Source: a bacterium
GTDB taxonomy: Bacteria > Bacteroidota > Rhodothermia > Balneolales > M1805
Length of the DNA stretch: 64,000 bases
Assembly: GCA_006226965.1 (NCBI GenBank)
Contig: SBGQ01000033.1
Location: 1-64,000, forward strand
Direction of reading: 5' to 3'
Shown: piece after piece, positions 11,699 to 13,766 of the stretch
How the letters are laid out: every line of letters begins with the position of its first letter
Numbering within the stretch: position 1 is the stretch's first letter
The notes under the pieces: model-generated
Databases searched by the model: none
Told to the model about the DNA's origin: nothing
Seen by the model: the letters and a program-made list of their open reading frames with translations, nothing else
Translations under genes and position numbers: made by a program

Positions 11699-12112
11699 TT
11701 AGTTGGCAATGTATTTAATATTCGTTTTCTTTCTGCTGATGGTTCCGAACGATTCATCAACTAAAACTAAATCGCGATTCTCTTTGTTTAAATAGAACTT
11801 TGCAAAACCATTATTGCTGTACTCGATTTTATAAACCCAGCACGAAATTGATTTGTTTGAGATAGTTATGGTTTCGTCTTCAAGTCGCTTAAAGATGTAG
11901 TTTTTAGGCCCTGATTTTGAACCCGGATGATAAAAAGGAATCTCTACATCAGACTTTATTTCTACTGGAAATAATCGCACGGTTTCGAGATCAATTTCGA
12001 AATTATAGGCATTCAATGAATCTGCCATTTTGAAATTACTTAGGCTGTTATTTTGCGTTGTATCTGAGGATGCCACAAACCCATCAGCATAATTAAATGC
12101 TTCTGTAACACC
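11699..12112 (-). pseudogene. C-terminal part of an interrupted gene for a secreted protein
   Basis: Joins in frame to 13431..13766(-) if the intervening 1318-bp unit is removed (AAC | GGT GTT ACA GAA); 414 nt including stop. Confidence 0.8.
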
Positions 12113-12133
12113 GTTATGAGCAAGGCTATGACG
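12113..12133 (+). repeat. Left imperfect terminal inverted repeat
   Basis: GTTATGAGCAAGGCTATGACG; 15/21 identical to the reverse complement of 13406-13426. Confidence 0.7.
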
Positions 12134-12137
12134 ACAC

Positions 12138-12160
12138 AACCCGACAGACAAAATCGGGTT
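12138..12160. other. Subterminal hairpin inside the left end of the unit
   Basis: Perfect 7-bp stem AACCCGA-cagacaaaa-TCGGGTT followed by CTTTTG. Confidence 0.65.
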
Positions 12161-12174
12161 CTTTTGATATTTTG

Positions 12175-12196
12175 TATTTAAGCAATTGCTTAAATA
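12175..12196. promoter_or_regulatory. Palindromic operator candidate for the ArsR-family regulator
   Basis: Perfect 22-bp palindrome TATTTAAGCAATTGCTTAAATA immediately upstream of the arsR-like gene. Confidence 0.8.
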
Positions 12197-12215
12197 AACA
12201 AATTGACTATCTTTG
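12185..12215 (+). promoter_or_regulatory. Bacteroidota-type promoter of the arsR-like operon
   Basis: -33 ATTG (12185-12188), 19-nt spacer, -7 TATCTTTG (12208-12215), matching TTTG-N19-TAnnTTTG. Confidence 0.75.
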
Positions 12216-12219
12216 CACT

Positions 12220-12594
12220 ATGGACAACATTTCGTGTATAAGACAACAAGCGGACATTAAGCAAATCAACCGCTGTAAAGACCGAGTATTAGAACTGAAC
12301 GGTTCGTTTGACTATTTATCCAACGGACTTGAATTGGCGGGTAACAACGTAAGACTGAAAATCCTGTTTCTGCTTTACGAAGAGCAACAACTTTGCGTTT
12401 GCGACCTTAGTGACATTCTCGGAATGACCATTTCGGCAATTTCACAACATCTGCGAAAACTCAAAGACCGAAAACTAATTGAAACGGAAAGGCAAGCACA
12501 AACCATTTTTTACTCACTGACAAAAGAGTATGAAAAAATGCTCAAACCTTTTTTCAAAATACTTCACGAAAACAAAATTTTGGAAACAATATGA
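12220..12594 (+). CDS. ArsR/SmtB-family metalloregulator
   Basis: MDNISCIRQQADIKQINRCKDRV...QQLCVCDLSDILGMTISAISQHLRKLKDRKLIETER; wHTH plus LCVCDL metal-site-like motif; start placed at 12220, downstream of the promoter. Confidence 0.88.
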   Translation: MDNISCIRQQADIKQINRCKDRVLELNGSFDYLSNGLELAGNNVRLKILFLLYEEQQLCVCDLSDILGMTISAISQHLRKLKDRKLIETERQAQTIFYSLTKEYEKMLKPFFKILHENKILETI

Positions 12595-13190
12595 AAACAG
12601 ACAAAAAATTAATCGGTGCAGGACTTTTGACAGCAATTGCAGCCTCACTTTGTTGCATCACACCTGTATTGGCTCTTGTCGCAGGGACAAGCGGACTTGC
12701 TTCAACTTTTTCTTGGCTTGAACCTTTCCGACCTTATTTTATAGGTTTGACAATTTTGGTTCTTGGTTTTGCTTGGTATCAAAAGTTGAAACCTAAAAAA
12801 CAAATTGACTGCAATTGTGAGACAGAAGAAAAACCAAAATTCATTCAATCCAAAATGTTTTTAGGAATTGTAACAGCATTTGCAATAGTAATGCTTGCCT
12901 TTCCTTACTATACTCACATATTTTATCCAAAGACAGAAAAACAAATCATAGTAGTTGACAAATCAAATGTTCAAACAGTTGAGTTTTCCATTAGCGGTAT
13001 GACTTGTGCAGGTTGTGAAGAACACGTAAACCACGAAGTGAATAAGCTTTCGGGAATAATAAAATCAACTGTTTCATACGAAAACGGAAATGCAATTGTA
13101 GAATTTGATAACTCAAAAACGAACATTGCCGAAATTGAGAAAGCAATAAACGGAACAGGATATTCAGTAACAGACAAAAAGGAAAAATAA
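12591..13190 (+). CDS. MerT-MerP fusion (mercuric/heavy-metal transport protein with C-terminal HMA domain)
   Basis: TM protein with SLCCITPVLALVAGTSGLAS (MerT-like) plus C-terminal HMA motif ISGMTCAGCEEHV; overlaps arsR-like gene by 4 bp. Confidence 0.85.
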   Translation: MKTDKKLIGAGLLTAIAASLCCITPVLALVAGTSGLASTFSWLEPFRPYFIGLTILVLGFAWYQKLKPKKQIDCNCETEEKPKFIQSKMFLGIVTAFAIVMLAFPYYTHIFYPKTEKQIIVVDKSNVQTVEFSISGMTCAGCEEHVNHEVNKLSGIIKSTVSYENGNAIVEFDNSKTNIAEIEKAINGTGYSVTDKKEK

Positions 13191-13191
13191 A

Positions 13192-13398
13192 ATGGAAATC
13201 ATACTACAATCAACAATCACTTGCCCAAATTGCGGACATAAAAAGGAAGAAACAATGCCGACAGACGCTTGCCAATATTTTTACGAATGTGATAATTGCA
13301 AGACCGTTTTAAAACCACATCAAGGCGACTGTTGTGTTTATTGCAGTTACGGAAGTGTAAAATGTCCGCCAATTCAACAAGACAAGAAATGTTGCTGA
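13192..13398 (+). CDS. GDCCVxC domain-containing small Cys-rich protein
   Basis: HQGDCCVYCSYGSVKCPP motif, CPNCG at N-terminus. Confidence 0.88.
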   Translation: MEIILQSTITCPNCGHKKEETMPTDACQYFYECDNCKTVLKPHQGDCCVYCSYGSVKCPPIQQDKKCC

Positions 13399-13405
13399 CA
13401 AAAGA

Positions 13406-13426
13406 CGAAAAAGCCCAGCCCATAAC
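13406..13426 (-). repeat. Right imperfect terminal inverted repeat
   Basis: CGAAAAAGCCCAGCCCATAAC; reverse complement GTTATGGGCTGGGCTTTTTCG matches left end 15/21. Confidence 0.7.
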
Positions 13427-13430
13427 AGCG

Positions 13431-13766
13431 GTTTGTAGCTCTAGTGTGATATTTTGGTTTAAAGTCAGTTGAGCTAAGCCAAGTTTGCAATTCTCTATTG
13501 TTTGGAGTCATCGTTGATGTCCATTTTTGCTTGATTTCTATCAAAGAATCACCTCGATGTTCTATTCGTTTAACTGATCTCTCCCAAACTGAGATATCTA
13601 ATAATTGACTTTCTCGAACGATGGTTACCAAATAGTTCGAGGTTTCATTTTTAATCATTTTATTCAAATAATCAGCAGAAAACGAAAAAGGTTTCGGTGC
13701 TTGTTGTGCTAAAACTGAACCGGACATAGAGAGAAACAATGCTGTTGCAAGAAACTTGAGATTCAT
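13431..13766 (-). pseudogene. N-terminal part of the interrupted secreted-protein gene
   Basis: Signal peptide MNLKFLATALFLSMSGSVLAQ; reading frame reaches the unit boundary after exactly 112 codons. Confidence 0.8.

Follow-up and report, generated by a model that had tools for sequence, protein, structure and literature searches.

The window, by which we mean the whole 64,000-nucleotide stretch analyzed here (contig SBGQ01000033.1, positions 1 to 64,000), contains a gene cassette inserted into a minus-strand DUF3108 gene, which it splits in two. We interpret this unit, with a probability of roughly 0.85, as a cassette of an integron-like system of Bacteroidota that was inserted in trans at a secondary GTT and subsequently lost its hairpin. 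The exact unit is 12113–13430, and GTT is common to its start and the target. The features of the region are listed below.

12113..13430, plus strand: inserted gene cassette of 1318 bp (ORF restored by its removal, same boundaries elsewhere)
12113..12121, plus strand: R' box GTTATGAGC, cassette start with putative crossover G|TT (Flavobacterium suncheonense copy, GTTATGGGC; cassette-start statistics)
13418..13426, plus strand: R'' box GCCCATAAC, where the attC-like site begins (aligns to positions 1–9 of model R1 in full copies)
13427..13435, plus strand: what is left of the 5' arm of the hairpin, AGCG followed by the GTTTG common to the target (comparison with loci L165 and L092)
12220..12594, plus strand: ArsR/SmtB-family metalloregulator (NF033788, 77 bits; PF01022)
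12591..13190, plus strand: mercuric transport protein MerTP (NF033556, 316.7 bits, cut-off 180)
13192..13398, plus strand: GDCCVxC-domain protein (NF041374, 111 bits, cut-off 40)
13431..13766, minus strand: N-terminal part of the interrupted DUF3108 gene (joined ORF, DUF3108 score, homologue alignment)
11699..12112, minus strand: C-terminal part of the interrupted DUF3108 gene (same evidence)

Joining the flanks as ACACC|GTTTGTAGC (ACACC|GTTTG) yielded an uninterrupted ORF of 249 aa, and the alternative join that keeps AGCG broke the reading frame. The joined protein could be aligned over its full length to a homologue in the same order (27% over 245 aa), and DUF3108 scored 38.8 bits across the junction compared with 25.7 bits for the C-terminal half alone. 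The unit was searched in 395 Bacteroidota genomes and then in 84,980 named genomes, from which 80 loci were kept. In about 30 of these 80 loci, the alignments reached both boxes and ended at 12110–12113 and 13434–13435; many others represented the operon without boxes. The copies in genomes G112 (98%) and G132 (87%) had the same ends as the window unit, and in both of them the two unit ends extended into long palindromes. Since the flank join restores the ORF and equal boundaries recur in about 30 other genomes, the cassette was assigned to 12113..13430. The empty site, ACACCGTTTGTAGC, restores the ORF, so that the cassette is joined to a genomic GTT site that is not an att site. Secondary insertion of integron cassettes of this attG type is attributed to Loot et al. 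2024 in PMC12901181 and PMC12772301; to the extent that these citing papers describe it, it shares with the present case a lone cassette and a short genomic GTT site outside an array, and the present case differs in that no IntI is known, the hairpin is missing, and the event is known from sequence alone.

An earlier note had described the ends of the unit as imperfect 21-nt inverted repeats. Direct comparison confirmed both 21-mers, identical at 15 of 21 positions, and at least 15 of 21 identities at the same spacing were found for only 3.5e-5 of random window positions. The identities were concentrated in the outer 9 nt (8/9), and the inner 12 nt are not common to other cassettes; the functional box is the outer 9 nt only, and what had been taken for a 21-nt terminal inverted repeat is the R'/R'' box match of one cassette. 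A point against the cassette reading is that the left box differed from the right box at one position, as it did from the F. suncheonense box. The F. suncheonense copy (99.7%) and a Cyclobacteriaceae MAG copy (99.6%) were bounded at G|TTA and followed by a full hairpin. In full copies, the right end, GCCNNTAACAGCGGTTTG, led into a hairpin of 135–137 nt ending in ...CGCAAACC|GTTR of the next cassette. In this Cyclobacteriaceae MAG (L166), the cassette of the window was placed at an attI-like sequence. In plasmids, only distant copies of the unit were found. At L196, L207, L219, and L228, the R'' box at the right end of the merTP cassette led into a hairpin of another kind and of lesser length (AACTAAGTTTTCGT...ATGAAAACGCTGTTG), perhaps a further class of site or an element inserted there.

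Alignment of 21 hairpins revealed two helices: R'' pairs with R', and L'' pairs with L' over 18 bp, the latter helix including a conserved A·C mismatch. Of the cells in the 27 pairs, 82% were paired, and 21 pairs had two-sided changes; the covariation score was reached by 0 of 500 shuffles, and the signal collapsed when the partners were slid by 1–3 columns. The spacers were asymmetric, with 1 nt after R'' and 5 nt before R'. Judged from these alignments, the A·C mismatch and the 5-nt bulge appear to resemble landmarks of attC. The sites do not have the integron core boxes RYYYAAC / GTTRRRY: GTTR was nearly invariant, positions 5–6 were not RR (A at 2% at position 5), and the boxes read GTTRNNNGC.

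A covariance model, R1, was built from the hairpins and used to survey the genomes at E ≤ 0.001. R1 sites were present in 171 of 395 Bacteroidota genomes (about 43%) and in 96 of 171 genera. The specificity of R1 is based on E-values down to 1e-30, on the 224 Bacteroidota genomes without a match, and on the own-R'' comparison described below. The sites formed same-strand arrays, e.g., at 150–185 kb of G407:C2 and at 107–145 kb of G110:C1, in which each cassette ended in a palindromic attC-like site with R''/R' pairing. The genome of the window contained about 10 R1 sites at E ≤ 0.01 on small contigs, three of which were located on one strand of contig C59. An Rfam search of the site returned nothing relevant. 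The exact end motif occurred once in the genome of the window, where near matches were no more common than those of a reversed control; judged by this motif in one genome, the trail would have seemed a dead end, and the hairpin model was needed. The prediction of an attC-like recombination site was thus borne out by a covarying hairpin of about 137 nt, and the motif pair, whose absence from other gene boundaries had been named as refuting it, was found at hundreds of cassette boundaries. A second attC-like family, starting with AACGGTCTTG, was observed at L016, L027, and L102 (G344, G014); its genomes carried array recombinases of other subtypes, one of which was near IntI in the tree.

The start of each array cassette was compared with R'' boxes over the five variable bases after GTTR. 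Among 141 array cassettes, a count containing a few copies of one cassette from several genomes, the start matched the reverse complement of the cassette's own R'' at 4.38 of 5 positions on average and perfectly in 109 cases. The match was 2.10/5 to the abutting site and 2.12/5 to random sites. This is an independent test because the five bases are unpaired in model R1. Such a pattern would be expected as the trace of circular cassettes recombining at G|TT, and the cassette boundaries together with the own-R'' rule point, at the level of sequence, to a crossover at this position.

At the right end of the window unit, model R1 detected no hairpin: about 115 nt of it are missing after 13435, and GTTTG leads straight into the target. 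Canonical insertion would have produced the full hairpin followed by ...GCAAACC|GTTTGTAGC. The observed junction, AACAGCG|GTTTGTAGC, equals the canonical junction minus the hairpin, with GTTTG at both edges. The circular junction GCCCATAAC-AGCG-GTTATGAGC proposed earlier is accordingly not the normal one, the real right site being the hairpin of about 137 nt that was lost here. Most likely, the GTTTG at the foot of the 5' arm and the GTTTG in the target would have been the ends of a deletion that removed the hairpin; the loss of a palindrome between short basal repeats would call for no new chemistry. The window copy alone cannot show the route of entry, because its hairpin is absent. It is less likely, although a serious alternative, that the cassette arrived hairpin-free and that the right junction arose by direct crossover at the GTT within the 5' arm (AGCG|GTTTG). 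AACAGCG|GTTTG does hold a GTT, GTTTG is common to cassette and target, and truncated sites from unusual crossovers have been reported for class 1 integrons (PMC12901181); however, none of the listed array cassettes had the 5'-arm GTT as its boundary, and locus L173, which carries the same cassette with its hairpin truncated at a different point, fits decay better than direct crossover at the inner GTT.

At the head of the arrays is a tyrosine recombinase. A recombinase profile built from nine array proteins was searched across the 395 genomes and found it in 117 of them, 98 of which also had sites (odds ratio 14.5, p = 1e-26, with no phylogenetic correction). Against the favored reading, 73 genomes had sites but no recombinase match at the chosen threshold, although cassettes can be orphaned and the sample includes draft genomes. 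In genomes with listed sites, 24 of 48 recombinases had a listed site within 20 kb, and the site was on the 3' side and the same strand in 20 of these, divergent in three, and otherwise arranged in one. A Chryseobacterium plasmid carried both the recombinase and hairpin sites; viral contigs contained no relative of the array recombinase. In 24 of 32 recombinase loci, some of them near-duplicates, the motif TATAAAnnA|GTT followed the stop codon at a distance of 57–114 nt; in the motif scan, all 24 lay within 160 nt of the stop, and none occurred in the remaining flanks. A putative attI-like site thus adjoins the integrase gene, as in integrons.

Most array recombinases had an N-terminal extension. 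The IntI-specific insertion, which is present in IntI1 and in a Vibrio IntI, was absent from all 22 array recombinases compared. Seven array recombinases scored 192–211 bits, always below the integrase_gron cut-off of 265. The top NCBIfam model for six of the seven was NF040815 (XerA / integron integrase), a likeness to XerA/XerC/XerD; they differ from the Xer proteins in their linkage to arrays and in a small tree, where they grouped with IntI apart from XerC/D (support 90/71), and IntI stood beside one Bacteroidota recombinase subtype (91/81). The tree has long branches, and the placement is provisional. A 582-aa array recombinase at L144:13772-15520 had an N-terminal W..W domain of about 45 aa three times, with no Pfam match. 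At L096:7435-8295 and L097:9447-10307 of Sphingobacterium sp. CZ-2, two identical recombinases of another type lie beside attC-like sites and may be part of an IS91-like element.

In the genome of the window, an intact recombinase gene was found at G000:C4:890-1972; against the favored reading, no attI-like site followed this gene, and no array site was found on C4. A broken array recombinase with an in-frame stop was observed at G000:C75:1721-2230 (L099), and C75 also had a weak R1 site. The contig of the window had no recombinase match. Because all matches lie off this contig, the enzyme would act in trans, as the earlier note had supposed when it advised looking for a tyrosine recombinase elsewhere in the genome; the C4 protein is the candidate.

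Taken as a mechanism, an IntI-related tyrosine recombinase without the IntI-specific insertion, presumably the array recombinase, would excise cassettes as circles, cutting at G|TT in the R' box of attC-like hairpins of about 137 nt, with folded single strands as the probable substrate. The circles would enter the attI-like site beside the recombinase gene or the sites of other cassettes. The window cassette would have been inserted in trans at the secondary site ACACCG|TTTGTAGC within the DUF3108 gene. It is improbable that a canonical IntI encoded elsewhere in the genomes mobilizes these units as ordinary integron cassettes, with the linked recombinases being incidental. A true IntI is able to recombine many attC sites in trans, and a review names Bacteroidota among the phyla with integrons, without detail (PMC8618304); against this, nothing in the 8 genomes tested scored above cut-off with the integron-integrase model, the linkage and orientation of the non-IntI recombinases are too regular, and IntegronFinder 2.0, after In0 elements earlier, now gives a single complete integron (Salinibacter) for Bacteroidetes proper (PMC9024848). 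A transposase-mobilized unit, either a mobile insertion cassette or a MITE-like passenger, bounded by terminal inverted repeats and with GTT as a 3-bp target duplication, would account for the clean gene insertion, the 9-nt inverted ends, and the GTT at each junction, but this was rejected as very improbable, with no fixed terminal inverted repeats, no duplication beyond the shared GTT, end boxes that vary among copies (GTTATGGGC, GTTAGTGGC) and obey the own-R'' rule in 141 cassettes, and relatives lying in hairpin-sharing arrays, not at scattered sites with duplications. Of the two origins previously offered for the GTT, crossover at a secondary site is retained and target duplication is dropped.

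The integron-like system favored here shares with integrons a recombinase gene, an adjacent attI-like site, a same-strand array, cassettes of mostly 0.2–4 kb, palindromic sites with pairing R''/R' boxes, and, as deduced from sequence, the G|TT crossover and cassette starts that match their own R''. It differs from them in that the IntI-specific insertion of roughly 45 residues is absent, the array mostly lies 3' of the recombinase gene and shares its strand, the boxes are GTTRNNNGC instead of GTTRRRY, the sites are mostly about 137 nt with the asymmetric 1-nt/5-nt spacer, and most enzymes have the N-terminal extension. The system works like an integron yet fails the defining IntI-insertion test, and it is not filed as one here. 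On balance, we favor the view that Bacteroidota have their own phylum-wide integron lineage, whose recombinase handles hairpins although it lacks the IntI insertion that is considered necessary for doing so; this lineage may be the sister or the ancestor of classical integrons. Our literature search, which covered freely available published papers, found no published account of this Bacteroidota system. Bacteroidota are regarded as a phylum in which integrons are rare. Detection tools depend on IntI and on standard attC models, and they may well miss the cassette sites that are present in about 43% of the sampled genomes. With an integrase that is free of the IntI insertion yet tied to hairpins, both the origin of integrons and the role of the insertion become directly testable.

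The G112 array (L091, 2400–12700) contained a lincosamide-resistance gene, Lnu(H) (567 bits against a curated cut-off of 540), a gene for a Sul3-like dihydropteroate synthase that scored below cut-off, a GmrSD-type restriction system, and AlbA/Schlafen-like genes. From the Lnu(H), Sul-like, and GmrSD-type cargo, the system probably moves resistance and defense genes. In the window, a palindrome at 12179–12215, TAAGCAATTGCTTA, overlaps TATCTTTG just before the ArsR start, a putative promoter of the Bacteroidota type; the merTP cassette probably carries its own regulated promoter.
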